Assembly (NCBI RefSeq): GCF_014642075.1 | Contig: NZ_BMIK01000001.1 | Span: 496,001 to 560,000, forward strand | DNA from: Parapedobacter defluvii | Lineage (GTDB): Bacteria > Bacteroidota > Bacteroidia > Sphingobacteriales > Sphingobacteriaceae | Length of the DNA: 64,000 nt | Direction: 5' to 3' | Shown: piece by piece, positions 25,237 to 47,810 of the stretch | Layout of the letters: each line of letters begins with the position of its first letter | How positions within the stretch are numbered: the first letter of the stretch is position 1 | Program-made: the position numbers and the translations under genes | The notes under the pieces: generated by a model | Databases searched by the model: none | Told to the model about the DNA's origin: nothing | The model's input: the letters and a program-made list of their open reading frames with translations, nothing else

Positions 25237-26631
25237 ATGGGTTATAAACAACTTATTAAATCTTGTATAATCGTCTTTGCAACCGGGCTGTCTGCTGTTG
25301 CTTGCCAATCACCGGAGGAAGCCACTTCGGTACGTAAATCCACATTAGAAACGATTGGTCTGTATGCTTTTGATGCTGCGGAAGAGGAACATTATATATT
25401 CTGGAAGGCCTGCGGATACAATTTCCTGCAATTCATTGACAAAGGGCTTTGGTTATCCCCTGAGGAACAAGATGGGTATTATGAACGCTTGGCGCGTGGC
25501 ATCGAGGATGCCCAGCGACATGGTTTTAAGGTGGGTATATTGTTGCAATCCAACTTGTTGTCGTATCCCCACGATTGGTGGGAGACATTTGACCCCCGGG
25601 ACAGTATGCAGATGCAGGCCCGGCTGGCAACCATCGAAGCGGTAGTCAAACGGTGCCGCAAAGCAGATGTAATGGAATTTTACGCTGGAGATCCCGGTGG
25701 TGCCCCCGATTCGCTTGGTGCCGAGGGTATTGCCCTATGGAAAGACATGGCTCAGGAAGTGAGGCATCTCGTGCACCAATATGCACCAACGGCAATGTTC
25801 AACGTCAACATCTGGGCGGTGTCGCATTGGGATTATATCCAGATTAGCCCATGGGCGACCTTCTTTTGGGATAAAGAGGTACAATATGGACGGGAAATCG
25901 CGGGCGATACATCGCTGGTCAATCCGATGACCGGTATTGAATTTCCACTGCATAACTATTATCGGTCGCTGGCTTTCAAAGCCTATGAAGAGGCGGGCGT
26001 TGATCCGGAACGCTTTCCAACAGCAGATGGCATCCGGGCATTAAAGCAGCGCGGCATAGAACGCATATGGGGATGGGCGCATTTCCTGATTGATGAGGTG
26101 GACGACGGATATACGGGATATGCGGGTATGAAGACCCATCCTGCCCAAGCCGAAACCAGGTACCTTCATCGGATTGTCTCCGATGCCCGGCAGATCGGAT
26201 TAACGGGAATGATCAGCAATTGCGATGGTTCCAACTCAGCGGTCGAGGCGATGAATGTCTATGCATTTGCTCGGTTCTGCCAAGACGGAGACCTCACGCC
26301 GGAAAAAGTGATTGATGAGTATGCCAGCTATCTGGGAGCCGATACCACATCCCAGGAAGTCATTGCCCAAGTGATCCGGTTTATCGAGAATCACAGTACG
26401 TGGGAGCAAAGTCTGCCCGAACGAAATCGGGTGGCAGCCTTCACTTGTCGGTTCGAAACCGCAGGTGCTGCGTTGGATGCACTTGAACGGATACCGCACC
26501 ACAGCAGTCAGACCAAACAATTTCCGTTGCTAGAATCTCCAGCGGAATATCTGATTAGATTGAAAGACCGCCTACGCGATATCGCGGCATTGAACCCCGA
26601 TGTTTCATCGCCATCGTCAACGCAAAGGTAA
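25237..26631 (+). CDS. Exported DPGG-family protein, subgroup A (unrecognised family)
   Basis: A 464-residue exported protein that I do not recognise. The signal peptide ends in LSAVACQS with a probable lipidated Cys23. The N-terminal two thirds look like a TIM barrel: GLYAFDA, ACGYNFLQF, HGFKVGILLQSN, FYAGDPGGAP (Asp152), FNVNIWAVSHWD, GIEFPLHNYYRSLA and FLIDEVDDGYTGY. The C-terminal third is mostly helical. The protein at 46428 is a clear paralogue across its whole length, and the proteins at 28093 and 29694 share the order of motifs more distantly. Conserved acidic and aromatic residues suggest a glycoside hydrolase-like function (inference). It lies between a lactonase and a sugar transporter. 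Confidence 0.8.
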   Translation: MGYKQLIKSCIIVFATGLSAVACQSPEEATSVRKSTLETIGLYAFDAAEEEHYIFWKACGYNFLQFIDKGLWLSPEEQDGYYERLARGIEDAQRHGFKVGILLQSNLLSYPHDWWETFDPRDSMQMQARLATIEAVVKRCRKADVMEFYAGDPGGAPDSLGAEGIALWKDMAQEVRHLVHQYAPTAMFNVNIWAVSHWDYIQISPWATFFWDKEVQYGREIAGDTSLVNPMTGIEFPLHNYYRSLAFKAYEEAGVDPERFPTADGIRALKQRGIERIWGWAHFLIDEVDDGYTGYAGMKTHPAQAETRYLHRIVSDARQIGLTGMISNCDGSNSAVEAMNVYAFARFCQDGDLTPEKVIDEYASYLGADTTSQEVIAQVIRFIENHSTWEQSLPERNRVAAFTCRFETAGAALDALERIPHHSSQTKQFPLLESPAEYLIRLKDRLRDIAALNPDVSSPSSTQR

Positions 26632-26642
26632 TCGGATTACAG

Positions 26643-26660
26643 TTTCGGTTAACACCGAAG
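26643..26660. terminator. Small hairpin TTCGGT-TAAC-ACCGAA
   Basis: A perfect six-base-pair stem with a four-base loop just after the DPGG gene, with one extra wobble pair. No U-tract follows, so it may be a processing or regulatory hairpin instead of a true terminator. Confidence 0.35.
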
Positions 26661-26683
26661 TACAAACATCAGGTTTACACGGC

Positions 26684-26691: not shown

Positions 26692-26726
26692 AATAAATGG
26701 AAGACGAGTCTTAGTAGAAGCAGGCA

Positions 26727-28100
26727 ATGATACAGGAAGAAAAAGGAAATAAAGTTTATACATATTTGATCGTATTGGTCGCTTCCATTGGGGGCTTCAT
26801 GTTTGGGTTCGATTTGGTCATCATCGCCGGCGCACTGCCTTTTTTGGAAGTGGATTTTCAGCTGACGCCGGCGCTGAAGGGATTTGCGGTAAGCAGTGCG
26901 ATCTTGGGATCTGTATCCGGGCCGTTAGTTGGTATGTGGTTTACCGAACGCTTGGGCCGGCGTAAAACCATGATGCTCGCCGCTTTATTTTTTATGGTAT
27001 CCACCATCGGGTCGGCATTTGCCTTTGGTATTTGGGACTTCGCGGTATGGCGCTTCCTAGGTGGAGTGGGTATCGGCTTAGCCATGATCTCCTCTCCCAT
27101 TTATATCGCCGAGTTATCACCACCCCATTTACGGGGCGTGTTGGTAAATGTGAACCAGCTTTCTAACGTTATCGGAATCAATTTGGCGGTTGTCGTGGGG
27201 TATTTCTTTTCATTCGATGGTTGGGGATGGCGTTGGATGTTCGGTTCGCAGGCTGTGCCTGTGGCTCTACTCATTGTCGGCCTGCTCCTTGTACCCGAAA
27301 GCCCCAGGTGGCTGGCCGCCCGGAACAGGCTTGCCGATGCGCTCGATGTGTTGACAAAAATCAATGGCCGGTGGCGGGCAGCGCAGGAATTGGAAGAAAT
27401 TAAAGCCGAATTGACACGCTCAGCGATGGACAACGGTTCATTTCATGAGCTTTGGCGGCCAGGAATCAGGCAAGCGTTGCTTATCGGCATCGTCATTATG
27501 GTATTCTCGCAGATCAACGGTGTTAACATGATTTTGCTCTATGCCCCAACCATTATGACGGAGGTAGGGATCAGTTTCGGTTCGAGCGCAATCCTCAGCT
27601 CCATTCCCGTTTATTTATTGATTTTACTGACTACCCTCTTGGCCTTTCCATTCATTAAGAAATTTTCCCGCCGTGGGTTGCTGATGGGCGGTGTTGCATT
27701 CATGGTCTTGGGGCATTTGATAATGGCAATTAATCTGTTTTTAGGCTGGCCGCCGCTGTTTTCGCTGATTCCAATGTTAATCTCTGCCGGTGCCTTTACC
27801 ATCGGCTTGGCACCATTAAGCTGGATTATTGTTGCTGAAATCTTTCCCAATCGGGTGAGGGGGAAGGCGCTTGCGGTGGTATGCTTCTTTCTGTATGCGG
27901 CATCTTTTATCACCGCCCAGTTCTTTCCGATACTAACAGATTGGTTTACGAGAAATTATGATACCGCCGCAGGAGTTTACCTCATTTTTGCAGGCATCTG
28001 CTCCTTGGGATTGTGGTTTTCCTGGCGGTTTGTGCCGGAAACCAAAGGGCTTAGCCTGGAAAAGATCAGCGAGTTTTGGGAGGAACGCAGGCATGGTTAA
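26727..28100 (+). CDS. MFS sugar porter
   Basis: A 457-residue major facilitator of the sugar porter family, with 12 predicted membrane helices in the inner membrane. Signature motifs are all present: ERLGRRK after helix 2, RFLGGVGIG in helix 4, PESPRWL before the central loop, FSQINGVNMILLYAP in helix 7 and PETKGLSLE at the C-terminus. It likely imports a monosaccharide or small sugar derivative by proton symport. Its end overlaps the next gene by eight bases, tying it to the DPGG proteins. Confidence 0.92.
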   Translation: MIQEEKGNKVYTYLIVLVASIGGFMFGFDLVIIAGALPFLEVDFQLTPALKGFAVSSAILGSVSGPLVGMWFTERLGRRKTMMLAALFFMVSTIGSAFAFGIWDFAVWRFLGGVGIGLAMISSPIYIAELSPPHLRGVLVNVNQLSNVIGINLAVVVGYFFSFDGWGWRWMFGSQAVPVALLIVGLLLVPESPRWLAARNRLADALDVLTKINGRWRAAQELEEIKAELTRSAMDNGSFHELWRPGIRQALLIGIVIMVFSQINGVNMILLYAPTIMTEVGISFGSSAILSSIPVYLLILLTTLLAFPFIKKFSRRGLLMGGVAFMVLGHLIMAINLFLGWPPLFSLIPMLISAGAFTIGLAPLSWIIVAEIFPNRVRGKALAVVCFFLYAASFITAQFFPILTDWFTRNYDTAAGVYLIFAGICSLGLWFSWRFVPETKGLSLEKISEFWEERRHG

Positions 28101-29667
28101 GGCGTTGATATTTTTAGCTGCGTGCCTACTTCTTTCGGGGGCTATCCGAGCACAGGAGACGGCCGGCCAAAAATTGGTGGGGATGTATATTCACCAAGGA
28201 TGGTCCTATAACCATCCGTATGCAGCACGTACTTGGACATTGGAAAATTGGCAGCAATACCTAGGCGGTATCAGCGCGCTTGGCTATAACAGTATACTGA
28301 TCTGGCCAATGCTGGAGACGATGCCCAATCCGATGACGCCAAGTGACAGTGCGCATGTAGATCGGATGCGGGCTGTAATCGATCTTGCACACCGTAAATT
28401 CAAGATGAAGACATTTGTTGTATTGTGTGCGAATATCGGACCCAAAAGTGAGCTGGCGAGTACATACTCCTATGAAGACCGGCCGCTCTATGGCATTGAT
28501 GAATACATCGATCCGGCCGATCCGGTGAAATTGGGAAAATTGATGGCATGGCGCGAGGAACTGTTGAAACCATTGAAAGCCGCAGATGGTATTTTCATCA
28601 TCGATAGTGATCCGGGTGGATATCCGAATTCGACCAATCCGGAGTTTGCCTACCTCCTCACTGCACACCGACGCATGCTTGATCGGCTTCGCCCCGGGAT
28701 TGAAATTTACTATTGGGCCTGGACGGGCTGGGAATCCTACGGCAGATTCCATGCAACAGGGCATTTTAGTATGGGAACGCAGGAAGAAATCCAGGATGCA
28801 TTATCTCTTATTGAAAAACAGCGCCCTGAGCCGTGGGGTGTAGCAACACATTGGTTGGGATACGGGGCTCAGGTTGATGCCGAGATGAAAGATCGTGTAC
28901 TGGCGTATAATTACGGTGCAATCGAAGCCGATCCAGCATTTCCCTTTACCTTATTTGGTCCAGCAGCTTACGAAGGCGGCATGAATACGGGAAGTAGAGG
29001 AGTGTTCGGAAATGCACTGACACACTGCGTGCAACTCCCCAATACGTTTGCTTTTGCAAGAGGAGCGTTGGGTCTGACCGCCGAAAGAGGCGATTACATA
29101 GCCTTTGCCGATCAGCTGATCGAAGGCGCGGGCGAATCGATCGTAGAAGGTTGGGAGGCATTACAGGGAACGGACGCGGTGCGCATGAAAGCTGCGGCAA
29201 TGAAGCTGATCAACTTGAGTAAATCCGATCTGAAGACGGGGAAATTCCGGGGATTACTCTTCGGAGATCCAAAGCGATTCGTGGATGATTTAATCGGCCA
29301 ACTTCAGATGGCAGCGGCCCTGTTTACCTTGAAGCGGACGTTGGGTGATGGGGAAGGCATGGTAACCAAGACATCGGTTGCCGCTTTTAGCGCGTTCATT
29401 ACTGCTGTGGAAGATTGGCATGACAGACACGGGTACAATAGCTATTGGTTTTGGCCTCCGATGACGGAAACCTTGACACGGCTACCTACCGATCGGTTAA
29501 AGCCCTTTTTGGAGGGCGGTCCTTGGTGGGAAGACGGCGTTGGTGATACGCCCGGTGAGCGCATAGGCGATGCGTACGAAAAAATACAAACTTACACCCC
29601 CCGGCTGATTGCAGCGATGAAAAGTGCCCTGGATGATTTACGAATGCAGGGGCAGGGCAATAAATAA
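28093..29667 (+). CDS. Exported DPGG-family protein, subgroup B copy 1 (unrecognised family)
   Basis: A 524-residue exported protein of no family I recognise. The frame is open far into the transporter gene, but the start is the ATG at 28093, which heads a good Sec signal peptide (cleavage after AIRAQ). The mature N-terminus has GMYIHQGWSYNHPYAART and LGYNSILIWPMLE; the DPGG motif is at Asp173 in DSDPGGYPNSTN, followed by RPGIEIYYWAWTGWESYG. A helical C-terminal third contains FSAFITAVEDWHDRHGY. The next gene encodes a close copy of the same length. Motif order matches the proteins at 25237 and 46428. A glycosidase-like TIM barrel is plausible but unproven. Confidence 0.8.
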   Translation: MVKALIFLAACLLLSGAIRAQETAGQKLVGMYIHQGWSYNHPYAARTWTLENWQQYLGGISALGYNSILIWPMLETMPNPMTPSDSAHVDRMRAVIDLAHRKFKMKTFVVLCANIGPKSELASTYSYEDRPLYGIDEYIDPADPVKLGKLMAWREELLKPLKAADGIFIIDSDPGGYPNSTNPEFAYLLTAHRRMLDRLRPGIEIYYWAWTGWESYGRFHATGHFSMGTQEEIQDALSLIEKQRPEPWGVATHWLGYGAQVDAEMKDRVLAYNYGAIEADPAFPFTLFGPAAYEGGMNTGSRGVFGNALTHCVQLPNTFAFARGALGLTAERGDYIAFADQLIEGAGESIVEGWEALQGTDAVRMKAAAMKLINLSKSDLKTGKFRGLLFGDPKRFVDDLIGQLQMAAALFTLKRTLGDGEGMVTKTSVAAFSAFITAVEDWHDRHGYNSYWFWPPMTETLTRLPTDRLKPFLEGGPWWEDGVGDTPGERIGDAYEKIQTYTPRLIAAMKSALDDLRMQGQGNK

Positions 29668-29693
29668 AATAGGAAACCATACAAAGATAACAG

Positions 29694-31268
29694 ATGATAA
29701 AAGTGAACATGAAACGAATATTGATGCTTGCGATGGCGATAACCGTTTGCTGTACGGCCAGCGCCCAACAATCCGCAAACAATCCAACGGGGAAATTACT
29801 GGGTATCTATGTGCACCAGCACTGGTCGTACAACCATCCATACGCTGCCCGTACCTGGACGTTGGATGATTGGACCGGCTATCTGGATGGGGTGAAAAAA
29901 TTGGGTTATAACAGTGTGTTGATTTGGCCGATGCTCGAAACGATTCCGGATCCGATGACACCAAGCGACGAAGCCAACCTGGAAAAAATCGCCAAAGTCA
30001 TCGATATTGCGAAGAATCGGTATCAGTTGAAAGTGTCGATTGTGTTCTGCCCCAATGTTTCACCAAAAAGTGAAATCGGCCGCCAATACACTTTTGAAAA
30101 ACGACCGTTTTTCCATACAGATGATCGCGTAGATCCCGGCGATCCCGTGGCGTTCGGCAAATTGATGGAATGGCGTGAGAAACTCTTCCGGCCGTTGGCG
30201 AATGCCGACGGATTATTTGTCATCGATAGCGACCCGGGAGGGTATCCAGGATCGACGAACCTGGAATTTGCATATATCCTGACGGCTCACCGCCGGATGC
30301 TGGATAGGCTACGTCCGGGTATTGAAATCTACTATTGGGCCCATTTCGGATGGGAATCCTATGGTAAGTTTTATGCCACGGGTGAGCTGGTACATGGGAC
30401 TGCCGAAGAGGTGCAGGATGCCATGAAATTGATCGAACGGCAAAATATCGGCCCATGGGGCGTGGCCAGCAGTGGCTTCGGTCCTAGCGTGGGCGATGCC
30501 ATCGGGATGAGCGATCGGGTGTTGGCATTTAATTACGGTGCCATCGAGGGTGAGCCGTCGTTTCCCCTGACCATTTATGGGACAGATAACGCGTACAACG
30601 GTGGAAGAAACGGTGCTGAACGTGGGGTATTTGGAAACGTGCAAAGTCATTGCCTCCAATTGCCGAATACCTTTGCTTTCGCAAGAGGAGCTCAGGGACT
30701 ACCCGTGGAACGTGCCGATTATGTGGCTTTTGCCAATGAGCTGATCGTCGGACAGGGTGAAACAATTGTAGAAGGTTGGGAATCGCTCCAGAGTGGAGAC
30801 AGCAAACGGATGGATAAAGCTGCAAAGCGGCTGCGGGCCCTGACAAAGCGGCCGCTGGAGACTGGTAGCTTAAAAGGGCTGTTGTTTGGGGATGTGAATC
30901 GATTTATTGAAGATCTGGCCGTTCAATTGGATGTGATGTCTTCGCTACAGACATTCAGCAATGCCGTTAATCGCTATCCGAAATCCCATAAAGCTGTGAA
31001 AATTGCGTTCTCTGCATTCGTAGAAGCTGTTGAAACCTGGCAGACGCGCCATGGGTACAGCAATCATTGGTATTGGCCTACCATGATAGAAGCACTTAAG
31101 AAACTGGAGGCCAAACCGGTTGACGAAACATTGGCAACGTTGACTTGGGTGAGTGAAGAAGGAGATACGCCTTTTGAGCGTGTAAAAAATGGGCTGGCGA
31201 GGTTAGAAGACTATTCACCCAGATTGATCAAAGCAATGAGGCAAGCATTGGCGGAGTGGGGTAAGTAA
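29694..31268 (+). CDS. Exported DPGG-family protein, subgroup B copy 2 (unrecognised family)
   Basis: A tandem paralogue of the preceding gene, also 524 residues from the ATG at 29694; the ATG at 29709 (MKRILML) would give a tidier signal peptide ending at TASAQ. By eye about half or more of the positions are identical to copy 1, including IHQHWSYNHPYAART, IWPMLETIPDPMTPSD, IDSDPGGYPGSTN, AHRRMLDRLRPGIEIYYWA and RHGYSNHWYWP. Differences cluster around the middle, where TGHFSMGT in copy 1 aligns with TGELVHGT here, which may alter specificity. The two copies probably work on related substrates. Confidence 0.8.
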   Translation: MIKVNMKRILMLAMAITVCCTASAQQSANNPTGKLLGIYVHQHWSYNHPYAARTWTLDDWTGYLDGVKKLGYNSVLIWPMLETIPDPMTPSDEANLEKIAKVIDIAKNRYQLKVSIVFCPNVSPKSEIGRQYTFEKRPFFHTDDRVDPGDPVAFGKLMEWREKLFRPLANADGLFVIDSDPGGYPGSTNLEFAYILTAHRRMLDRLRPGIEIYYWAHFGWESYGKFYATGELVHGTAEEVQDAMKLIERQNIGPWGVASSGFGPSVGDAIGMSDRVLAFNYGAIEGEPSFPLTIYGTDNAYNGGRNGAERGVFGNVQSHCLQLPNTFAFARGAQGLPVERADYVAFANELIVGQGETIVEGWESLQSGDSKRMDKAAKRLRALTKRPLETGSLKGLLFGDVNRFIEDLAVQLDVMSSLQTFSNAVNRYPKSHKAVKIAFSAFVEAVETWQTRHGYSNHWYWPTMIEALKKLEAKPVDETLATLTWVSEEGDTPFERVKNGLARLEDYSPRLIKAMRQALAEWGK

Positions 31269-31295: not shown

Positions 31296-32261
31296 ATGAA
31301 GATATCAGACATACTTCCGCCTTTTCGTCATCGCCTATGGACAATAGCGAAGCAAGGCGGAGCTACCCACGCGGTATCCCGGCTTCCTTTAGGTGCAGAC
31401 GGTAAGATATCCTGGGAATATCTGGACTTGCTCCATCTCAAGGAAAGCTATCAGAATTTCGGTCTCCAACTGGAGGTTATAGAACCTGGATTGGATGGGC
31501 AGATGCACGACATGAAATTGGGTACGGACAAACGAGATCTGGATATTGAACACTGTAAGCAACTGATCCGCAACATGGGGACGTTGGGTATTCCGGTGTT
31601 TTGTTACAATTTTATGGCAAAGTTTAATTGGGTCCGGACGTCGACGACGACGCCTACAAGGGGAGGTGCTTTGGTTACCAGCTACGATCATTCGCTGATG
31701 GAGCACGCCCCGCTGACCGATGCAGGAATCGTAACGGCGGATACCTTGTGGGAAAATATTAAGTATTTCCTGGAGGCCGTTGTGCCCGTTGCTGAAGAAT
31801 ACAAAGTAAAGCTTGCACTCCACCCCGATGATCCGCCCGTAGCTAGTATACGGGGAATTTCAAGAATCGTCACCAGCGCTGCAGCGCTGCAGAAAGTGCT
31901 GGACATGGTGCCAAGCCCTTATAGCGGGATCACGCTCTGTCAAGGGACACTTGCCGCCGCAGGAGAAGATATTCCTGCTATCATCCGCGAATTCGGGCAT
32001 AAAAAGAAAATTTTCTTCGTGCATTTCCGGGACGTCAAAGGTACGGCCGAGCGATTTACAGAAACGTTTCACGACGATGGGCAAACCAACATGCTAGAAG
32101 CGGTAAAAGCGTACAGAGAAGTCGGGTTTGACGGTCCGGTACGCATAGATCATGCACCTACACTAGAAGGAGAGGACAATAAAGACCCCGGTTATGCCGA
32201 AATGGGGCGGCTATTTGCGCTTGGATACCTCCGGGGGCTCATGGATCATGCAGGTTATTAA
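31296..32261 (+). CDS. uxuA: Mannonate dehydratase (UxuA family, short form)
   Basis: A 321-residue UxuA-family TIM barrel that dehydrates D-mannonate to 2-keto-3-deoxygluconate, or a close relative. The four metal-site residues are present: His176 in LHPDDPP, Cys215 in LCQGT, His243 in FVHFRDV and Asp285 in IDHAPT. It is shorter than enterobacterial UxuA (about 390 residues) but fits the short family found in Bacteroidota. It indicates that an aldonic or uronic acid is produced by the pathway. No uxuB, kdgK or kdgA partner is adjacent, so the downstream route is unclear. Confidence 0.85.
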   Translation: MKISDILPPFRHRLWTIAKQGGATHAVSRLPLGADGKISWEYLDLLHLKESYQNFGLQLEVIEPGLDGQMHDMKLGTDKRDLDIEHCKQLIRNMGTLGIPVFCYNFMAKFNWVRTSTTTPTRGGALVTSYDHSLMEHAPLTDAGIVTADTLWENIKYFLEAVVPVAEEYKVKLALHPDDPPVASIRGISRIVTSAAALQKVLDMVPSPYSGITLCQGTLAAAGEDIPAIIREFGHKKKIFFVHFRDVKGTAERFTETFHDDGQTNMLEAVKAYREVGFDGPVRIDHAPTLEGEDNKDPGYAEMGRLFALGYLRGLMDHAGY

Positions 32262-35305: not shown

Positions 35306-36613
35306 ATGGGTAGTTATAAAAATTCTGCGATCTTATTGGATCGCGCAAAGCAAGTATTGGCAGGGGGCGTCTCTTCGGAATTCCGGAAATATAATCACCC
35401 CCACGCGATCTTTTATTCCCACGGAAAAGGTAGCCGAATATACGATGTCGACGGGAATGAGTATCTGGATTTTACATTGAGTCAAGGTCCGTTAATCTTG
35501 GGTCATTCCCATCCACACGTGTTAAAATCAGTAGCAGAATATTCGGAAGAAGGGCAGTTGTATGCCGGACAGCATATCCGGGAAGTAGAGTTAGCTGAAA
35601 AATTGAATGCGCTGATTCCTTCGGCTGAGTTGATGAGGTTTTGCCTGGACGGGTCTGAAGCTGTACAGACGGCATTCAGGGTAGCCCGTGCAAAGACAGG
35701 ACGGAAAAAATTTCTACGGTTTGAAGGGCATTACCATGGCTGGTTGGACAATGTGGCCTATGGCATCTCGGCTCCTAATGCGGACGCATTGGGCGACCGC
35801 GAGCAGCCCAATGTGTTTCCGTGGACTGCCGGCCTTCCGGATTCTTCACGGGATGATTTCATCGTATTGCCCTGGAACGATCTGGAATTGGTAGGGCGGG
35901 TACTGGAAAAGCGGCATGAAGAAATCGCGGCAATCATTACGGAGCCCATTATGTGCAACAACGGATGTATTCTGCCAAAAGAAGGCTTTTTATCGGGCTT
36001 ACGCGAGCTATGCAATAAATATGGGGTAACACTCATATTTGACGAGGTAATAACAGGTTTCCGGGTGGGACTGGGTGGGGCACAGTCCTACTATGGGGTG
36101 ACTCCGGATCTGTCAATTTTTGCCAAGGCAATGGGCAGCGGTTATCCAATCAGTGCGATCGTGGGCAAACGCGAATGGATGGAACTTGTGGCAGCAGGAA
36201 AGGTAATCCATGCGGGAACCATGAACGCTGGAAATCCAACAGTCGCTGCTGCGTTGGCAACCATCGAGGTACTCGAACAGGAGATGCCCTATGATCGGAT
36301 GCACCGGTTAGGCAGAAAGCTGATGCAAGGCTTGCAAAGAACTGCAGCGGAAGCTGCTCAGGATCTGTCTGTACAGGGGCTGGGACCGATGTTCGTAACC
36401 TATTTCGGTGTATCGCAGCCGCTGTCGGACTACCGGGATACGTTGGGTACCAACAAAGCGAAGCTGGGCCGTTTTGTAGCGGGACTGCATGATGCGGGTG
36501 TGCGCGTCATCGGCCGCGGACTGTGGTACATCAGCGCTGCACATACCGAGGCAGAGATCAATCAGGCCATTGAGGTAGCCAGCCGGGTGCTTCACGATAT
36601 GAATTCAGCATGA
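35306..36613 (+). CDS. Class III aminotransferase (glutamate-1-semialdehyde aminomutase-like)
   Basis: A 435-residue PLP enzyme of aminotransferase class III. Lys274 in IFAKAMGSGYP is the PLP lysine, with IFDEVITGFR just before it and DGSEAVQTAFRVARA as the phosphate-binding region. The N-terminus resembles glutamate-1-semialdehyde aminomutase, but the setting between a glycosidase and SusCD argues for an amino-sugar or amino-acid-conjugate role instead of tetrapyrrole synthesis. It is probably co-transcribed with the upstream hydrolase and the SusC gene 16 bases downstream. Confidence 0.87.
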   Translation: MGSYKNSAILLDRAKQVLAGGVSSEFRKYNHPHAIFYSHGKGSRIYDVDGNEYLDFTLSQGPLILGHSHPHVLKSVAEYSEEGQLYAGQHIREVELAEKLNALIPSAELMRFCLDGSEAVQTAFRVARAKTGRKKFLRFEGHYHGWLDNVAYGISAPNADALGDREQPNVFPWTAGLPDSSRDDFIVLPWNDLELVGRVLEKRHEEIAAIITEPIMCNNGCILPKEGFLSGLRELCNKYGVTLIFDEVITGFRVGLGGAQSYYGVTPDLSIFAKAMGSGYPISAIVGKREWMELVAAGKVIHAGTMNAGNPTVAAALATIEVLEQEMPYDRMHRLGRKLMQGLQRTAAEAAQDLSVQGLGPMFVTYFGVSQPLSDYRDTLGTNKAKLGRFVAGLHDAGVRVIGRGLWYISAAHTEAEINQAIEVASRVLHDMNSA

Positions 36614-39600: not shown

Positions 39601-39746
39601 TTTTCCTGATTGTCAGCGATGAGGTAAATGGCGATCCGGAAACAGTGGGGACGGGATTTGGTGCCGGAGCATTTTCACAAGGGTTGACTTATCACGCGTA
39701 CCCCAAGCCAACATTGTATATGTTGGGCGTAAATGTTAGTTTTTGA
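36630..39746 (+). CDS. SusC/RagA-family TonB-dependent transporter
   Basis: A 1038-residue outer-membrane transporter. After a signal peptide (cleavage near KGMAQ) come a carboxypeptidase-like regulatory domain (about residues 30-110, EVRGVVRDAETQQGMAGV), a TonB box and plug (about 115-240, VVVIGYGTQRKSDLTGSV and VIDGVMT, then ILKDASSTAIYGARGANGVILITTKRG) and a 22-strand barrel. There is no N-terminal STN domain, so no sigma/anti-sigma signalling is expected from it. It binds glycans or glycosides together with the SusD protein that follows and overlaps. Confidence 0.95.
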   Translation: MNRIFFRFRIQPLVLMLVVAASAYVKGMAQEKTEVRGVVRDAETQQGMAGVTVAASGATVKTDSIGSYRMEVGPNAVLTFSSVGYESVEIPVNSRRVVDVMLQKSTTALDQVVVIGYGTQRKSDLTGSVGSISERTLKERPASSVNEMLAGRISGVQVNVNSGRPGGFTNVRVRGFSSINSSNDPLYVIDGVMTESMGFINPTDIVSIEILKDASSTAIYGARGANGVILITTKRGKSGFSEVNYNVDVSTPTLGPNMPKYLNAREYLQVEDIAYRNIEKYDPVGWADGKYELRNPALNRTDPRLFDSEGNPLYDTDWMDEATQHRISQNHQLGITGGSDSRSYAVSLGYRDDQGLIKTSYMKRYNGRLTFDDQVRDWLKVGGTLTYNYQTENRVDQDYLPIRMIAEGLPFLPVKYPDGSWSANRDYPYAEASLNPIQYLYERKYILNTQTALGNIYSNIRLFEGLEMRTELGTSNITQEINTSVSRGLSIMGEQGSASVNNGRTNFWSLDHYFTYNNSLSDVHSINAMLGMSWQESSAFGINVSVQNFPSDYFGFNNIGAGSNNPIYGSGASRFSFNSYFGRVNYSMFNKYLLTVTGRIDGSSKFGDNYKYAFFPSAALAWRVSDEPFLRQNEVVSNLKLRMSYGVTGNSEIPPYSSLSLLNSGYIAVLGDQRVGGTGIGRLANPDLRWEKTAQSDVGVELGLFNNRIAIEGDLYYRKTTDMLLDAPVPRSSGYATIRRNVGSMENKGIELTVNSRNIESNAFSWKTTFNISMNRNKVLSLATPSDIIGVGGVVFINPTNIIREGAPVGSFYGLIREGIWSEAEREEAAKFASYRNGLPILPGDIKYRDVNGDYAITDADRMIIGNGSPDGWGALVNEFTYRNWGLTVDLQYAYGNDVFELSMGSSEDRVALANSYRTVLNAWTPENQHSIIPELRDTRAGYVINEDTHWLKDGSFVRGRNLALSYTLPSGMTQRWGVNQLRVYASLQNFFLIVSDEVNGDPETVGTGFGAGAFSQGLTYHAYPKPTLYMLGVNVSF

Positions 39747-39757
39747 TTTTTAAGGAG

Positions 39758-41329
39758 ATGAGGATATTTGCTATGAAGTTTTTTTCATCAAGGTCTACGG
39801 TAATCGCTGTATTAACCGTTTGCTGCGGACTATCCATATGGGGATGCTCGGGTTTTCTCAAGGAAGTCGATCCGACAAATTTAACCAAAGAAAGCTTTTT
39901 CACGATTCCGGAACATGCCGAGTCTGCAATTGCCGCTGTCTATGCAGATACGCGCTTTATCGGTGATTATGCGGGATCATTTTCTGCGAACTGGCAGCTG
40001 CTGGAAGCACTGACGGGGACATCAACAACGGAAAGTGCGGAGAATGCCAGCCTAAACAATCTGTATTCGTTGGTACACGATGGTAACAACAGGCATATCG
40101 TTAACTGGTGGAATGGACTGTACCGCGTAATAGCGCAGGCTAATCTCGTTATTGAGAATGTGCCCAACATCAGTCCGATGGATGAAGAACAACGGTCTAA
40201 GATCATGGGGGAAGCTTATTTCCTGAGAGCCTGGGCCTATTTTTATGCAGTACGGCTGTGGGGAGATATTCCATTGATTACTAAACCCCAAAATGCCGGT
40301 TCGGATGATTTCTTTCCCCAAAGAACCTCAATTGAAGAAGTTTACGCGCTGATCGTCAATGATCTGGTTAATGCAGAATCTGCAGGGCTACCCTGGATGG
40401 ACAAATCAGGGCGTGTCTCATTGGCTGCGGTAAAATCCCAATTGGCCATGGTGTATTTGACCATGGCGGGATACCCGTTAAATAAAGGCAACGCATACTA
40501 TCAATTGGCGGCTGAAAAATCCGGAGAAGTCATTACATACGCACGCGCAAACCCGGGTATTTTGAACCTGTTTGGCGACTACTCGGCATTTAGGGATCCA
40601 TCCAGAAAAAACGAGCTTGAGCAGATTTTTATGATCCAATTCCATGGTAGCATTGTACCTAATATGCAGGGGCTTTTCACCCGACCGAATTTTAAACCGG
40701 TGTCTGTCACGAATACAGGGGTTGGCACCACCGTTCCGACACTGGACTTCTACAATTCGTTTGCGGACGATGACCTCCGGAAGAAAGACAAAACGGGGTT
40801 TTTCTATACGAGCTACTATACCAATGGGTCCGGTGCGCTATTCAGCTTGGGCGGTCCTTACATTTTCAAGTTTTTTAATACCATTGCAAATGGCGCACCG
40901 GGTCAAACAGGTACAGGGGTAGATGACCTGAATATTCATCAGATCCGCTTTGCCGAGGTGTTACTGGTGTTTGCTGAGGCAACAAATGAAAGTACCGGAA
41001 TATCGGACGATGCGTATGAAGCACTGACGCGCATTCGAACCCGGGCTGGCCTGACGACTGCCGCACGGAACTCATTTAGCAAGGAAACCTTTCGGGAAGC
41101 CATCTGGAAAGAACGGTGGCATGAGTTATGTTATGAGGGGATTACCTGGTTTGATATGGTGAGGCTTCGAAAAGTTTACAATGAACGGACGGACAGGTTT
41201 GATGATTTTGTCGGACATGTCAACCTGAGTTCTAATCAGACCCTCAAAGACCGGCACCTGCTGCTACCGCTGCCCACGCTGGAAATGTCTGATAATCCAA
41301 ACTTGAGACCCCAAAACCCGGGTTACTGA
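39758..41329 (+). CDS. SusD/RagB-family lipoprotein
   Basis: A SusD-family surface lipoprotein of about 523 residues. The start is uncertain: an AAGGAG directly abuts the ATG at 39758 and stands 15 bases from an in-frame ATG at 39773, while a TTG at 39743 overlaps the SusC stop. All give a lipoprotein signal ending in LSIWGCSG. Conserved TPR-like segments (AYFLRAWAYFYAVRLWGDIPLI) and the C-terminal YEGITWFDMVRL and LPLPTLEM...NP blocks are typical. It caps the SusC barrel and selects the ligand. A strong terminator follows 23 bases after the stop. Confidence 0.93.
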   Translation: MRIFAMKFFSSRSTVIAVLTVCCGLSIWGCSGFLKEVDPTNLTKESFFTIPEHAESAIAAVYADTRFIGDYAGSFSANWQLLEALTGTSTTESAENASLNNLYSLVHDGNNRHIVNWWNGLYRVIAQANLVIENVPNISPMDEEQRSKIMGEAYFLRAWAYFYAVRLWGDIPLITKPQNAGSDDFFPQRTSIEEVYALIVNDLVNAESAGLPWMDKSGRVSLAAVKSQLAMVYLTMAGYPLNKGNAYYQLAAEKSGEVITYARANPGILNLFGDYSAFRDPSRKNELEQIFMIQFHGSIVPNMQGLFTRPNFKPVSVTNTGVGTTVPTLDFYNSFADDDLRKKDKTGFFYTSYYTNGSGALFSLGGPYIFKFFNTIANGAPGQTGTGVDDLNIHQIRFAEVLLVFAEATNESTGISDDAYEALTRIRTRAGLTTAARNSFSKETFREAIWKERWHELCYEGITWFDMVRLRKVYNERTDRFDDFVGHVNLSSNQTLKDRHLLLPLPTLEMSDNPNLRPQNPGY

Positions 41330-41566: not shown

Positions 41567-44500
41567 ATGAATAAGAATGTTTTACTAATCAACCAATTAA
41601 AAGGCATCCTATTGATGATGCTTGCGTTGCTGATGGAATTACCTGCCCAATCTCAGCAGTTACTGGATATTTCGGGAACTGTGCGTGATTCGGAGAACCA
41701 GGAGGTTTTGCCAGGTGTAACCGTTACCATCGCGTCCTCCGGCTTCAGTGTGAAAACGGATATCGATGGACAATTCCATTTGCAAGCCAAGCCTGAAGAA
41801 ACGCTGGTATTCCGACATGTGGGATTTGATGAACAATATGTTTACGTTGACAGCCGGGTTAACATCGACGTCTTGCTGGTGAAATCCACCGTTGGCTTGG
41901 ATGAGGTGGCAGTTGTAGCGTATGCTACGCAAAAGAAAGAAACCATCACGGGAGCTATCGCCTCCGTGAAGACCAAGGAATTGAAGCAAAGCCCAGCAGC
42001 GAATCTGGCGGTCACATTGGCCGGGCGGTTGCCCGGATTGACTACACTACAAACCAGCGGTGAGCCGGGACGGGATGTCACTGCCTTGTTTATACGGGGG
42101 AGAGCAACCATTAACCAAACTGCACCCATTGTGTTGATTGATGGTATCGAACGGGAGTTGACCCATATCGACCCTAATGAAGTCGAGTCGATCACGATCT
42201 TAAAAGATGCTTCCTCGACCGCTTTGTTTGGTGTGCGCGGTGCGAACGGTGTCATCTTAGTGACCACAAAACGGGGTACGTCTGAGGTGCCCGAAATCAA
42301 TCTAAGTGCGGAAGGTGCCGTTCAGGATTTTCCGAAGTTTTTTGATATGGTCAACTCGTATGATTATGCCTCACTCCGGAACCTGGCATTAAAAAACGAT
42401 GGGCTGCCGGCACAGTTCTCGGAAAAAGCGCTGGAAATGTACAGAACTGGTGCGGATCCCGTGAACTATCCGAATACGAATTGGCGGGACATCATGATGA
42501 AAGACGTAGCGTTGCAGCAGCGATACAATTTGAATATTTCGGGCACAACCAACAATCGATCCATGAAGTATTTTGTGAATGCAACCTATCTAAATCAGGG
42601 CGGACAGTTTAACGTAGAGCAGGATCTGCCTTATGATCCGTCATTCAAGCTGGATCGATACTCTTTCCGATCGAATATCGATTTACAACTGAATAATCGG
42701 CTGTCAGCGTTCATGAATGTTGCAGGCTATTTGGAAAAGCAGAATATGCCGATGAGTATTTTAAATAGGCTGGGAGATATCCCGACTCAATTGGAGGGTA
42801 TGTCTCCGGCACTGTACATCATCTCATTCATGACGCGTGTCCCGGCCAATGTGCCCATGCTAACCCCCGAGGGTGAAGTAACCACGGGCCCGAATATTGA
42901 CTGGCCGGCATATGGACTGTTGAATAGATCTGGATACGTAAAACAAACCCGCAGCAACGTATTGGCGACGTTTGGTATGAATCAAGAATTGGATATGGTT
43001 ACCAAGGGCTTATCCGCCCGGTTGGTCATGTCCTTTGATACCCGGTCCATTAATAACCTTTACGGTGCACGAGAGTTCATCAGGTATATGCAGGTAATCA
43101 ATCCCAGTTCTGACCCGACGATACCCGATGAGATTTATTTTTCACAGTACGGGGGGTGGCTAAATACTCCCATCACAATAGGGGGCGGTTCAAATTTTGT
43201 GTCGCTGTTCAATTTTCAGGCATACTTGAATTATAATAGGCAGTTTGACAAACATGCCATAACGGGAATGGCTTTTTATCAGCAACAGCAAAATATCCAA
43301 GGCATTGCGTTGCCCTTTAACCTGCGTGGTTTTGCAGGACGGTTGACCTATGGATACGATAACAAGTATTTCATGGAGTTCAACGCGGGTTACAACGGAT
43401 CCGAACAGTTTGCCAAAGGTAAACGTTTTGGATTTTTTCCGGCGATCTCTGCGGGGTGGTTGATTTCGAACGAACCGACATTTAAGGATCACGATTACAT
43501 TTCCCACCTGAAATTAAGGGGATCCTATGGGCTGGTCGGAAACGATCAATTGGGGGGTAGGCGTTTTCTCTATTTGGATGACATCTACCTAGGGGCAGGC
43601 GGATATTCTACAAGCCTCGGACTGGGCCAACACATTGGCATCAATATGCTGAAAAATGCCGATATCACGTGGGAGATCGCCAGAAAAACCAACGTGGGGT
43701 TTGAACTGGGATTATTTAATGAATTAGACCTTATTGTAGATGTATTTAAAGAAAAGCGCGACAATATTTTGCGGAACCGTTCCACCATACCATTGATCAA
43801 CGGGTTTCCGGCAAGTGTGCTTCCTCCGGTTAATATTGGCGTAATCGAGAATAAAGGGTACGAAATCGAGTTGAACTACCGGAAGGCGGTAACGGCAGAT
43901 TTATCTATTTTGACAAAGCTTAATTTTAATCACGCAAAGAACAAACAGCTGTTTGCGGATGAACCGTTATTGAATCCCGATTTTGCCTACCAATACCGCG
44001 CTACCGGATATCCTTTGGGACAAAACTTTGGTTATATCGTAGAGGGCTTCTTTAAAGATGCCGAAGACATTGCCAATTCTCCGCAGCAAGTGGTTGGAGG
44101 GCATGAGTCGAGACCCGGTAACTTTAAGTACAAGGACCTTAACATGGATGGGACCGTCAATGAGTTGGATATGGCCCCGTTGAAATATACGGCAATACCG
44201 GAATATACATTTGGGGCGGCATTTAATGTCAATTACAAACAATGGGATGTCAGCGTGCTGTTTCAAGGTGTAGCCAATGTAGGAAGAATAATGGGAGACA
44301 ATGGAATGTGGGCTGGATCGGGATTTTCTAACTATTCGGATTGGCATCGGTACAGTTGGACGCCCGAACGGGCCGCCAATGGGGAAACCATCAAGTATCC
44401 CCGTTTGACTACCCAGGCATCTCCCGATGAACGATTAAACGATTTCTTTTACGTAGATGGCAGCTTTTTGAGGCTGCGCAATGTTGAGCTGGGCTATACG

Positions 44501-44677
44501 TTCCCCGTCAAGCTCGTGACGCGCATGGGTATCAAGCGTATTCGTCTGTACACCAATGGTCTCAATCTGTATACCTGGGATAAACTTCCATTTGATGGGA
44601 TTGATCCTGAATTGACAAGTGCGTACGCCTATCCCATTCAGCGGTTGTTCAACTTCGGGGTAAATGTTACATTTTAA
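41567..44677 (+). CDS. SusC/RagA-family TonB-dependent transporter
   Basis: A 1036-residue SusC protein. Order: signal peptide, carboxypeptidase-like regulatory domain (DISGTVRDSENQEVLPGVTV), plug with VAVVAYATQKKETITGAI and VLIDGIER, the ILKDASSTALFGVRGANGV block, then the barrel ending in FNFGVNVTF. No STN domain. It differs substantially from the SusC at 36630, so the two pairs should import different ligands. It begins a separate operon that continues through a SusD, a DPGG protein, an SGNH esterase and a degenerate beta-helix gene. Confidence 0.95.
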   Translation: MNKNVLLINQLKGILLMMLALLMELPAQSQQLLDISGTVRDSENQEVLPGVTVTIASSGFSVKTDIDGQFHLQAKPEETLVFRHVGFDEQYVYVDSRVNIDVLLVKSTVGLDEVAVVAYATQKKETITGAIASVKTKELKQSPAANLAVTLAGRLPGLTTLQTSGEPGRDVTALFIRGRATINQTAPIVLIDGIERELTHIDPNEVESITILKDASSTALFGVRGANGVILVTTKRGTSEVPEINLSAEGAVQDFPKFFDMVNSYDYASLRNLALKNDGLPAQFSEKALEMYRTGADPVNYPNTNWRDIMMKDVALQQRYNLNISGTTNNRSMKYFVNATYLNQGGQFNVEQDLPYDPSFKLDRYSFRSNIDLQLNNRLSAFMNVAGYLEKQNMPMSILNRLGDIPTQLEGMSPALYIISFMTRVPANVPMLTPEGEVTTGPNIDWPAYGLLNRSGYVKQTRSNVLATFGMNQELDMVTKGLSARLVMSFDTRSINNLYGAREFIRYMQVINPSSDPTIPDEIYFSQYGGWLNTPITIGGGSNFVSLFNFQAYLNYNRQFDKHAITGMAFYQQQQNIQGIALPFNLRGFAGRLTYGYDNKYFMEFNAGYNGSEQFAKGKRFGFFPAISAGWLISNEPTFKDHDYISHLKLRGSYGLVGNDQLGGRRFLYLDDIYLGAGGYSTSLGLGQHIGINMLKNADITWEIARKTNVGFELGLFNELDLIVDVFKEKRDNILRNRSTIPLINGFPASVLPPVNIGVIENKGYEIELNYRKAVTADLSILTKLNFNHAKNKQLFADEPLLNPDFAYQYRATGYPLGQNFGYIVEGFFKDAEDIANSPQQVVGGHESRPGNFKYKDLNMDGTVNELDMAPLKYTAIPEYTFGAAFNVNYKQWDVSVLFQGVANVGRIMGDNGMWAGSGFSNYSDWHRYSWTPERAANGETIKYPRLTTQASPDERLNDFFYVDGSFLRLRNVELGYTFPVKLVTRMGIKRIRLYTNGLNLYTWDKLPFDGIDPELTSAYAYPIQRLFNFGVNVTF

Positions 44678-44693
44678 TTGGGAGGTTAAAAAC

Positions 44694-46424
44694 ATGAAAA
44701 AAATATCCATTTTAGCGCTTATAACGGTCTTCACCGTACTATCGTGTAAAGAAAGTCCACTTGATATCACGCCCGATGGGAGAATCACATTTGACGAGGT
44801 ATTTAAAGATGAAATTCAGACCGAATCTTTTGTAAATACGATCTATTCAAAAATACCGCTTTATTTTTTCAATTATAATAACTATGGATTTCTTGCGGGC
44901 ATAACCGATGAAGCGCAGGAAGTGAGGAACACATTTATCGGTGGGATGGCCCTGCAATGGCAGATCGGTGCTTTAACACCTTCAGCAAATCCCCTTGCGG
45001 GTATGTTGGATTATGGGCTTTGGTGGCAGGGAATTGGCCATGCGAACCTTTTCCTATCCTATATTGACAATGCAAATATTGAGGATCCTGCTAAGAAAAG
45101 CCGCTTAAAGGCTGAAGTGCAGTTGCTGCGTGCTTTTTTCTATTGGGAACTCACGAAACAATATGGTGCCATGCCCGTGGTGACAGAACCTTTTGCTCCC
45201 GGGTTTGCTTTTGAGTCGTTAACGCGTCCGAGCTTTGAGGAAACGGTCGATTTCATTGTCAGTGATTGCGACGCTGTCATCGCAAACGCGAATATGCCAT
45301 TACGGATTACCAATGCTTCGGAACGTGGTCGTTTCCCTAAGGCCGTTGCTTATGCCATTAAGTCGCAAGCCCTGTTGTTCAATGCAAGCCCACTCTGGAA
45401 TGCGACGAACGAGCAATCCAAGTGGCAGCGGGCTGCTGATGCGGGACGCGATGCATTGCAGGCACTTACGGTGCAGGGAGATTTCCGATTATTTGACGAC
45501 TATGGCAATTATTTCATCCGGTCTCAAGATCTTGGTGCTTCTATCTTGGATCGCGAAACCATCCACGAGATTCCAGCAGATGCGGGTGTTTTTTCCGTTA
45601 TCAATACCATCCCGAGCAATGGAGAACTGATTGGTACCAGTGCCGGGGCATGCCCCTCACAGGAACTAGTAGATAGCTATGAAATGCAAGCGACTGGCGA
45701 GCCGGCGATTTTGGGATATCAGGATAGCGACCACTTGCAGCCTATTATTAATGCCAGTTCTGGTTACGATGAGAATAACCCGTACGCAGGACGTGATCCC
45801 CGCTTTTATGCGACCGTCTTTCACAACGGATCTTATTATGGACCTATAAACGGGAGGGAACATACGGTTGAAACATTTATCGGTGGACGCGATCAACTGC
45901 TGGCCTATGCACAGTTTACCAACACCAGGACCGGTTATTATCTAAAAAAATTCTATGACCCGTTAATTCCAGCCAATCAATTGGTACAACAAACCCGTTG
46001 GAAGAAATACCGCTTAGCCGAAATTTACCTCAATTTTGCAGAAGCCGAGAATGAAGCAAACGGGCCTTTGGGGGCATATGAAGCTGTCAATACAGTAAGA
46101 AGGCGGGCGGATATGCCTGATTTACCCGCTGGTTTAAACCAAGAGCAAATGCGTGATCGCATCAGACGGGAAAGGCGGGTTGAATTTGCGTATGAAGAGC
46201 ATCGCTTTTGGGATGTCAGAAGATGGAAAATTTTGTCAGAAACGGATAAGCTTGTGACGGGGATAGAGATACGGAAACAAGGAGATGGGTCATTTACTTA
46301 CCAGCGATTTGTAACCGAGCGCCGGTCGGCAGGATGGCAGGATAAATACCTGTTATTTCCCATTCCATTGAGCGAAACCAATCTAATCCCTGATTTTAAT
46401 AACAATCAAAATCCCGGTTGGTAA
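44694..46424 (+). CDS. SusD/RagB-family lipoprotein
   Basis: A 576-residue SusD protein started at the ATG at 44694, which has a clear Shine-Dalgarno GGGAGG at 44680-44685; an earlier in-frame ATG at 44664 lies inside the SusC gene and is unlikely. The lipoprotein signal ends in FTVLSCKE (Cys18). The N-terminal half has the helical repeat region (LLRAFFYWELTKQYGAMPVV) and the C-terminus has YEEHRFWDVRRWKI and KYLLFPIPLSE, both typical. It partners the preceding SusC. Confidence 0.93.
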   Translation: MKKISILALITVFTVLSCKESPLDITPDGRITFDEVFKDEIQTESFVNTIYSKIPLYFFNYNNYGFLAGITDEAQEVRNTFIGGMALQWQIGALTPSANPLAGMLDYGLWWQGIGHANLFLSYIDNANIEDPAKKSRLKAEVQLLRAFFYWELTKQYGAMPVVTEPFAPGFAFESLTRPSFEETVDFIVSDCDAVIANANMPLRITNASERGRFPKAVAYAIKSQALLFNASPLWNATNEQSKWQRAADAGRDALQALTVQGDFRLFDDYGNYFIRSQDLGASILDRETIHEIPADAGVFSVINTIPSNGELIGTSAGACPSQELVDSYEMQATGEPAILGYQDSDHLQPIINASSGYDENNPYAGRDPRFYATVFHNGSYYGPINGREHTVETFIGGRDQLLAYAQFTNTRTGYYLKKFYDPLIPANQLVQQTRWKKYRLAEIYLNFAEAENEANGPLGAYEAVNTVRRRADMPDLPAGLNQEQMRDRIRRERRVEFAYEEHRFWDVRRWKILSETDKLVTGIEIRKQGDGSFTYQRFVTERRSAGWQDKYLLFPIPLSETNLIPDFNNNQNPGW

Positions 46425-46427
46425 CGG

Positions 46428-47810
46428 ATGAGTGCGCAGTTTTTCATAAGCTTGAATAGGTGGGCAATGTTTCGAATATTGGGGTTGCTGGCTTCTTTGC
46501 TGCTGTATATGGAAACAACGCAGGCGATGTTGCAGCGAAGTACCCCGCTGCCCGACTCGACTTTCGAGACCGTGGGTGTATACTTGTGGCCATCCTGGGC
46601 AAGAGAAACAACAGGTGATTATGAATTCTGGAAAGCCAGCGGTTATAATACGATTTTCTTCCTAGTTACCGGTATCAGCTTTGTGCCGCCGGCGGTACGT
46701 GATGCTAATCTGGTGGCTTATCGTAAACGCATTGAAGATGCCCAGGAGGCAGGGTTCAAAGTAGGTATTGTGCTGCTTTCCAATATCAGTAAGACCGGAC
46801 ACAGTTACGACCCAAGGGATGAACAACAAATGACCGGGCGTCTAGCCGATATCAAACTAGTTATTCAAAGTTTATCTATTGCCAACAGCATCACGTTTTT
46901 CGCGGGAGATCCCGGTGGTGCTCCCTCTAAATTAGGCTCGGATGGAGTGAAGTATTTTTGGGAGATGGCGTTGAAAGTACAGGCCATGGTTGGACAATAT
47001 GCTCCCCATTCGTTGTTCAATATCAATTTGTGGGCAATAACGCATTGGGATGACATCAATATATCTCCTTTTTCGGTTGATTTTTGGAGAAAAGAAGTTG
47101 AATACAGTAAAGTGTTGCTTGCTAATACCGATTTTAAGGAGACTGGGATCGAATTTCCATTGCATAATTATTACCGATCATTGGCATTACATGAATATAC
47201 AAAGGCGGGGCTTGAACCAGAGAAATATCCCACGAAGCAAGATATCGCTGATTTATACGCTAGGGGAGTAAAGCAACAATGGGCGTGGCCGTACTTTCTC
47301 ATTGATGAAGTTGATGACGGTTACACGGGTTACTTAATTTCCAAGGTCCATCCCACCCAATCTGAGACAAGGTATATACGGGATATTGTGGTAGTGTCTA
47401 GGAAGTTGGGGCTCAATGGAATGATCGTGAATGCTGCAATCGATTCCTTGGGATTCCAAACAGAGGTACTAAACGTATATGCATTGGGACGAATGTGTTC
47501 GGATCCCCTATTAACGCCTGAACAAGTGATTGACGATTTTGCTGGACTCATTGCTAATGCGGATACGAGGCGTGTACTTGCCGATGTGCTGATGTTTGTA
47601 GAAAATAACAGCACCTGGGAGGCGAGTATCCCTCCCTCCTTTCGGATGCCTTCGTTTAACTCCAAATATAAGCAAGCAAATGCTGCATTGGATGCTTTGG
47701 CATATGTTGAAGCGAATACCGCTTTTCAATTTCCGTTGCCTATTGCGCCTGAAGAATATTTGGAAAGGTTGAGAACTCGTTTGTTGGACATCGCAGGTTC
47801 TGAGCTATGA
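46428..47810 (+). CDS. Exported DPGG-family protein, subgroup A (unrecognised family)
   Basis: A protein of up to 460 residues, paralogous to the one at 25237 along its full length. Started at 46428 it carries 13 residues before a Sec signal; the ATG at 46467 (MFRILGLL) would give a normal signal peptide ending near TTQA. No lipobox is seen, unlike its paralogue. Shared blocks are ASGYNTIFF, GFKVGIVLLSN, YDPRDEQQ, FFAGDPGGAP (Asp161), FNINLWAITHWDD, GIEFPLHNYYRSLA, FLIDEVDDGYTGY and FVENNSTWE. It lies four bases after SusD and overlaps the SGNH gene, so it is linked to a specific glycan uptake pair. Function unknown. Confidence 0.8.
   Translation: MSAQFFISLNRWAMFRILGLLASLLLYMETTQAMLQRSTPLPDSTFETVGVYLWPSWARETTGDYEFWKASGYNTIFFLVTGISFVPPAVRDANLVAYRKRIEDAQEAGFKVGIVLLSNISKTGHSYDPRDEQQMTGRLADIKLVIQSLSIANSITFFAGDPGGAPSKLGSDGVKYFWEMALKVQAMVGQYAPHSLFNINLWAITHWDDINISPFSVDFWRKEVEYSKVLLANTDFKETGIEFPLHNYYRSLALHEYTKAGLEPEKYPTKQDIADLYARGVKQQWAWPYFLIDEVDDGYTGYLISKVHPTQSETRYIRDIVVVSRKLGLNGMIVNAAIDSLGFQTEVLNVYALGRMCSDPLLTPEQVIDDFAGLIANADTRRVLADVLMFVENNSTWEASIPPSFRMPSFNSKYKQANAALDALAYVEANTAFQFPLPIAPEEYLERLRTRLLDIAGSEL

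Follow-up and report, generated by a model that had tools for sequence, protein, structure and literature searches.

Four proteins encoded in a 64,000-nucleotide stretch of the Parapedobacter defluvii genome (contig NZ_BMIK01000001.1, positions 496,001 to 560,000 of the forward strand; hereafter the window) belong to one protein family with two distantly homologous branches, here called A (proteins A1 and A2) and B (B1 and B2). We consider it almost certain that this is a single family with a barrel fold lying outside both Pfam and NCBIfam. Further, A and B quite likely cleave glycosides, and, with slightly less assurance, we propose that together they represent an unnamed, glycosidase-like (beta/alpha)8 family that has sugar-acid glycosides as substrates and works alongside a UxuA/lactonase pathway; our confidence in this substrate class is lower than in glycoside cleavage as such. 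If the proposal holds, the two partner branches would form a new enzyme family directed at a sugar linkage that perhaps no named family covers and found in many phyla that have hardly been cultured (Armatimonadota, Hydrogenedentota, Planctomycetota and others), and it would provide a first test for those proteins of the superfamily that are still unannotated.

The four open reading frames (ORFs) were found where a preliminary description of the window, made from the sequence alone, had placed them (Table 1), and they share the motif order that it had proposed: G[LVMI]Y, GYN[FST], an [FLM]K strand ending in Asn, DP[RGA]D, xxDPGGxP, a W-rich strand and a helical end. The strand ending in Asn was seen as described, while the pair preceding it is [FLM]K and not a fixed FK. 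The division into a tandem pair of 524 residues and two dispersed copies of about 460 also agrees with the sequence comparison, as B1 and B2 are 54% identical over 519 positions and A1 and A2 46% identical over 431 positions (E 6e-136). With regard to start sites, the ATG of B1 at 28093 is an internal start within a longer mechanical ORF (27958-29667), B1 aligns with its paralogue B2 from residue 2 onward, and the translation start of A2 may sit further inside its ORF.

As single sequences the branches are barely alike (A1 against B2: E 0.022 over 45 positions), and this weak similarity is what speaks for two unrelated families in which a short common motif arose by chance. Profile comparison contradicts such an origin. 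The A and B profiles aligned with hhalign at 98.7% (E 2.3e-16) when built from 8 A-type and 44 B rows, and at 99.1% (E 1.3e-18) with 21 A-type rows, the reverse direction giving 98.9%, whereas 100 column-shuffled A profiles reached at most 2.5% against B. Eight control families from the neighbourhood (UxuA, aminotransferase, MFS, GFO, xylose-isomerase-like, SMP-30, MlrC and aldolase) remained at or below 0.7%, although these controls are thin, with 1-14 rows each and three of them with 1-3 rows; the profile of a GH5-like neighbour gave 9.6% against A-type and 0.4% against B. Additionally, the A-type hidden Markov model (HMM), run on 43 B-carrying genomes, also matches B proteins, with E-values of about 5e-14 to 7e-6 and mostly over HMM positions 12-190, and further matches some proteins that are neither A nor B. 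Taken together with the common predicted layout described below, these results make a chance resemblance hardly credible. The 44-row B alignment (A4) excludes partial or broken B proteins, namely the minus-strand copy of locus L010 and those of L040 and L042-L047 (loci and genomes carry our own L and G numbers).

None of the four proteins reaches a cut-off in Pfam or NCBIfam. Across eight A-type members, Pfam gave nothing below E 0.033 (PAC2, in one of the eight), followed by Glyco_hydro_67C in three of eight (best 0.05) and DUF4434 (0.052), and across 44 B members no E-value fell under 0.003, that of a GAD-like match in four of the 44 which we attribute to chance. Searches of PDB sequences with A1 (P0001) and B1 (P0002) singly returned nothing meaningful, the best match being a proteasome subunit at E 0.56, and the profiles searched against PDB chains gave at best E 0.048 for B (a VgrG protein) and E 0.28 for A (a designed protein by name). 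The preliminary description had been unable to assign a named glycoside hydrolase family, and none of these three collections placed A or B in one. A related alternative is that A and B are members of a recent CAZy family for which Pfam and NCBIfam have no model. The best fold hit of A, GH138 (BP0997, template modelling (TM) score 0.54), would fit this alternative, but the identity is 10%, the A profile matches no GH138 chain at E 10 in a PDB collection that should contain such chains, and neither profile meaningfully matches any PDB chain. Further, no description of the A/B family was found in the open-access literature, a weak negative since subscription journals were largely outside its scope. 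We therefore regard membership in a recent CAZy family as improbable.

Structure predictions were obtained for B2 (predicted local distance difference test (pLDDT) 94.1, 44 aligned rows) and A1 (pLDDT 84.9, 8 aligned rows). The A1 model has eight strands of at least 3 residues and the B2 model has ten, of which eight are taken as the barrel (98-100 and 119-121 excluded), and both models show the same strand order, with DPGG after strand 4 and helices towards the C-terminus. For both branches the models thus lend good support to a (beta/alpha)8 barrel with a C-terminal helical region, in line with the TIM-barrel-like fold suspected earlier; different folds in the two subgroups, named beforehand as a possible refutation, were not what the predictions gave. 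Against the PDB, Foldseek ranked BtGH84 first for B2 (E 1.6e-6, TM 0.40), with GH20, GH89, beta-amylase and alpha-amylases below, and GH138 first for A1 (E 1.4e-8), then GH84 (TM 0.52), with xylose isomerases lower. These scores point to a glycosidase-like barrel, the barrel being firmer than any named glycosidase family.

In such glycosidases, the acid and the base or nucleophile usually sit after strands 4 and 7. Every one of the 44 B rows and 21 A-type rows has an Asp following strand 4 and an Asp or Glu following strand 7, so that both predicted structures combine a barrel with invariant acids at these places. Among the positions checked, Y39, H41, W44, R53, N73, E82, N121, D178, D180, W215, W220, W255, Y281, E285, N315, H319 and Q322 are invariant in 44/44 B rows, and Y43, D152, W193, W198, D286, D289, D290, R308 and N340 in 21/21 A-type rows. 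The combined alignment gives a set common to both branches, consisting of the strand-1 Tyr, the DPGG Asp, W-x4-W after strand 5 and the Asp/Glu after strand 7, the equivalence of the last being a reading by eye. By analogy with these glycosidases, one of the strand-4 and strand-7 residues may act as acid and the other as base or nucleophile.

Invariant acids after both strands, together with invariant aromatic, His and Gln residues, argue against the idea that A and B are non-catalytic glycan-binding barrels accompanying SusD. This idea draws on the position of A2 directly after SusD2, but relatives of the SusC and SusD of the window were found in the flanks examined at only 3 of the 45 B loci (L008-L010), and a quarter of the B proteins examined (12/48) look cytoplasmic; we consider it very unlikely. 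A somewhat more serious, though still unlikely, alternative holds that A and B are barrel enzymes of another class, such as lyases, epimerases or hydrolases of oxidised (keto) sugars lacking the classical acid/base pair, and that the oxidoreductases, DUF1080-like proteins, lactonases and xylose-isomerase-like proteins of the window form an oxidise-then-cleave route. It gains from the many sugar oxidoreductase- and isomerase-type ORFs upstream in the window, which we take to be such from their sequence type, from the SDR and SMP-30 genes in the cluster, and from the xylose isomerases among the fold hits of A. Glycosidases nevertheless rank highest among the fold hits, A is distantly linked by sequence to GH67 and DUF4838, and neither a cofactor motif nor a known metal motif was seen by eye in A or B.

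The links to named families were examined by profile-profile comparison, as the preliminary description had recommended, which in addition to the A-B homology yielded a distant connection of A to DUF4838 and GH67. A-type rows scored 60.1% against 11 DUF4838 rows (E 8.6e-5; maximum of 100 shuffles 4.3%), 63.7% against 13 GH67 rows (maximum of 100 shuffles 2.0%) and 0.1% against 3 GH84 rows. The profiles thus suggest, weakly though above chance, a remote kinship of A with DUF4838 and GH67, with B linked to them only via A. In this regard, A would be a sequence bridge to DUF4838 (PF16126), itself named a family of unknown function. The A-type DPGG Asp aligns on the Asp of the DUF4838 signature 'nDN..CxCxxC'; however, among the A-type and B members examined the Pfam model found no match at E 1, CxCxxC was not seen by eye in A or B rows with DPGG, and the DUF4838 frames compared are at least 611 residues long. 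With the GH67 alpha-glucuronidases, A-type proteins have in common a segment that runs from past strand 7 into the helical part (N-x-YAFGR...) and UxuA near the genes, but Glyco_hydro_67C is found only at the level given above, and 67M is not matched. The idea that the DPGG Asp is the GH67 acid was dropped, as a forced A-type/GH67 alignment pairs it with another Asp. Resemblance to the GH84 O-GlcNAcases (NAGidase) lies in the fold ranking, first hit for B and second for A, in the barrel followed by helices and in acids after strand 4. The TM-scores are nevertheless low, the profile similarity is only 0.1-0.2% against three GH84 rows, Pfam NAGidase is not matched, and the adjacent Asp-Asp that we take to close strand 4 in GH84 is absent, B having DSD and A [AGS]xD.

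The two branches also occur together. A full-length A-type protein (profile match with E below 1e-100, C-type members described below included) was found in 14 of the 43 B-carrying genomes, which are those of 44 loci; the genome of the remaining locus, L049, has two A-type proteins and stands outside this count. When B and other proteins are counted as well, 36 of the 43 match the A model. Among 191 genomes from the phylum of G677 (L050; Armatimonadota), 13 carry both, 4 only A, 5 only B and 169 neither (Fisher p 4e-13), and with nine of the 13 removed because they had been reached via the B scan, the counts are 4, 4, 5 and 169 of 182 (p 2e-4); both p-values are inflated by shared ancestry, for which they are uncorrected, and this lessens their weight for our proposal. 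The thresholds of these scans differ (E 1e-40 and 1e-60), and some B matches are fragmentary or divergent (G734, G852). In four of the 13 genomes (G677, G715, G821 and G833), the A and B genes are 2-12 kilobases (kb) from each other on the same contig.

Further, the branches are fused in two lineages. In Sphingobacteriales 50-39 (L009), one frame of 942 codons encodes B followed by A with no stop between them, and a second A gene follows. In a Phycisphaerae bin, a single frame that encodes B and then a C-type A is interrupted by a contig end; B starts on a second contig, which has 27 end bases in common with the first. Because the fused A parts fall in different branches, the two fusions look independent. 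A UxuA-like gene (31-34% identical to that of the window) adjoins A at L125, L129 and L132, the one at L129 being under the NCBIfam cut-offs, but all three are Armatimonadota and do not count as independent cases. Sugar-ABC genes stand beside A at L129, and relatives of these genes at L132.

The substrate may be a small glycoside or an oligosaccharide that includes a sugar acid or an oxidised sugar. In P. defluvii, it would enter the periplasm through SusCD, where its linkages would be cleaved in turn by A, B and the GH5-like protein. Further handling of the released sugar or sugar acid would fall to the MFS porter, SDR, lactonase and UxuA-type dehydratase. A and B may act sequentially on one molecule, which would account for their fusion in two lineages.

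Several observations weigh against this proposal. Glycoside cleavage and the pairing of the acids are inferred from sequence and predicted fold, and the TM-scores of the ten top fold hits are low (0.26-0.43 for B, 0.44-0.55 for A), with alpha-amylases scoring nearly equally for B and xylose isomerases appearing among the hits of A. The B profile shows no link to DUF4838, GH84 or GH67 (0.1-0.2%), and the match between A and GH67 excludes the barrel and the GH67 catalytic residues, presumably a conserved Glu after strand 4 and a later Asp/Glu pair. B without A was found in 29 of the 43 genomes, most of them metagenome-assembled genomes (MAGs) that may be incomplete. No neighbour family is common to all B loci: in a Pfam tally of 62 plus-strand neighbour ORFs, a rough count with many spurious ORFs in high-GC loci, none occurred more than three times, and outside Bacteroidota most neighbours of B differ between loci. 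Lastly, single-protein searches gave low rates, with B in 2 and A in 1 of 300 genomes of the order of the window, and each in 1 of 345 genomes of a phylum sample (only the P. defluvii genome), rates that are not comparable with the profile-based co-occurrence count.

One scan of genome contigs placed B at 45 loci, 44 of which are titled as MAGs. In the tree, B falls under 15 phylum labels, including Armatimonadota, Hydrogenedentota and Planctomycetota, some of which may reflect errors in MAG binning; the single archaeal record is the most suspect in this respect. Neither B2 nor A1 matched any plasmid, and viral contigs held no relative of B2 and none of A (67 pattern matches, none confirmed). 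In the B phylogeny, B1 groups with the B half of the 50-39 fusion and B2 with P. pyrenivorans (support 100/99). Because B1 and B2 group separately, their split seems older than that from 50-39, unless genes moved sideways. The preliminary description had all four proteins exported, which fits them by eye but does not extend to the family, and general export was dropped: of 48 B proteins (L040 and L045 excluded, doubtful cases counted as having a signal), 12 are without a candidate signal peptide, comprising 11 in which all in-frame starts lie at most 10 residues from strand 1, and L050, where the 18 residues are not hydrophobic. Some B proteins are thus probably cytoplasmic, which would imply a small substrate reachable inside the cell.

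The genes of the window lie in two runs. The main run reads along a single strand, its genes from MlrC to SusD1 being separated by -8 to 95 bases, and is ordered MlrC, SMP-30, A1, MFS porter, B1, B2, UxuA, a 996-residue GH5-like protein, class III aminotransferase, SusC1 and SusD1, and the second comprises SusC2, SusD2, A2 and a GDSL/SGNH-type esterase; an SDR gene is also part of the cluster. A sugar porter, UxuA and SusCD had been noted nearby before, and the first two were recovered by Pfam; the SusC and SusD names are ones we presume from sequence type, at positions that were confirmed.

Table 1. Features of the A/B family and its surroundings (window coordinates unless a locus is given).
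Feature	Position	Strand	Remarks
MlrC-type protein (DUF1485/M81 + MlrC_C)	22904..24403	+	Pfam
SMP-30/gluconolactonase-type protein	24400..25215	+	Pfam
A1, family A protein, 464 residues (P0001)	25237..26631	+	possible lipoprotein, lipobox by eye
DPGG of A1 (D152-G155)	25690..25701	+	directly after predicted strand 4; Asp in 21/21 A-type rows
D286 of A1, candidate second catalytic acid	26092..26094	+	after predicted strand 7; Asp in 21/21 A-type rows; putative role
MFS sugar porter	26727..28100	+	Pfam, NCBIfam
B1, family B protein, 524 residues (P0002)	28093..29667	+	closest tree relative is the B half of the L009 fusion, 68% identity, support 100/100
DSDPGG of B1	28603..28620	+	
B2, family B protein, 524 residues (P0003)	29694..31268	+	78% identity to L008:10001-11557 (P. 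pyrenivorans)
DSDPGG of B2 (D178, D180)	30225..30242	+	directly after predicted strand 4; both Asp in 44/44 rows
E285 of B2, candidate second catalytic acid	30546..30548	+	after predicted strand 7; Glu in 44/44 rows; putative role
UxuA-type protein, mannonate dehydratase subfamily	31296..32261	+	over NCBIfam subfamily cut-off, under uxuA equivalog cut-off
996-residue protein, weak GH5 match	32274..35264	+	Pfam E 2.4e-7; no NCBIfam match
Class III aminotransferase, GSA-aminomutase-like	35306..36613	+	under the NCBIfam cut-offs shown
SusC1-SusD1 pair	36630..41329	+	named from sequence type
SusC2-SusD2 pair	41567..46424	+	directly upstream of A2; 69 and 76% to L009
A2, family A protein, 460 residues (P0004)	46428..47810	+	top match in L009, 55%
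DPGG of A2	46908..46919	+	
Ten further A-model matches	L050:7230-9635, L067:1375-2838, L070:667-2181, L073:637-2133, L087:979-3018, L088:705-3314, L089:248-2317, L092:1617-4445, L095:1113-2912, L091:1193-3475		

Eleven genes of the cluster have counterparts with 62-86% identity at L008 in P. pyrenivorans, where a further divergent B (L008:6779-8383) replaces A1 between SMP-30 and the sugar porter. MlrC relatives were found near B at L008 (67%) and, with 26-27% identity, at L014, L025 and L029. L131 has a second B cluster with SusCD-like genes (58-59%), MlrC (56%), UxuA (56%) and an FAH-type gene (64%) about 11 kb away, and L009 has a GntP permease. The 996-residue GH5-like protein, possibly a glycoside hydrolase family of its own, has relatives in the B loci L008, L009, L010 and L049. 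Relatives of the aminotransferase occur at 12 of the 45 loci, five of them at 43% identity or more; deriving the substrate from this enzyme was given up, as its best NCBIfam matches are transaminases under the cut-off and name no substrate. In two Armatimonadota genomes, a DUF6785/DUF6784 protein stands directly beside tandem A genes (L050:4008-5966 and L124:1661-3613).

Six of the 21 A-type rows are C-type members, with a DWG and a CxCGxC loop (L017:11489-12934, L049:11523-12950 and L063-L066). Their DWGxCxCGxC takes the place of the DPGG of A and B and is possibly a metal or disulphide loop; as it resembles the DUF4838 signature, C-type looks intermediate between A and DUF4838. Ten more proteins (488-943 residues; Table 1) are matched by the A-type model across its DPGG half or a portion of it. 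Eight of them have no Pfam match at E 0.01, two have only weak GHL6 matches and none is found in NCBIfam, suggesting a wider unnamed superfamily. A broader view, which we hold only tentatively, is that A, B and C-type are branches of a wide unnamed barrel superfamily joining DUF4838 and GH67, in which B and A/C would be fused or paired two-step partners on one sugar-acid glycoside across many phyla.

Two further observations concern other parts of the window. At positions 20-5556, the Bacteroidota genome carries what we take to be planctomycete-style DUF1549/DUF1553, DUF1501 and cytochrome-domain genes. At 48531-49393, two ORFs overlap in different frames, the first of which opens in a pectate-lyase/rhamnogalacturonase-like manner (Pfam E 1.5e-8, 38 residues), and together they may represent a frameshifted gene.

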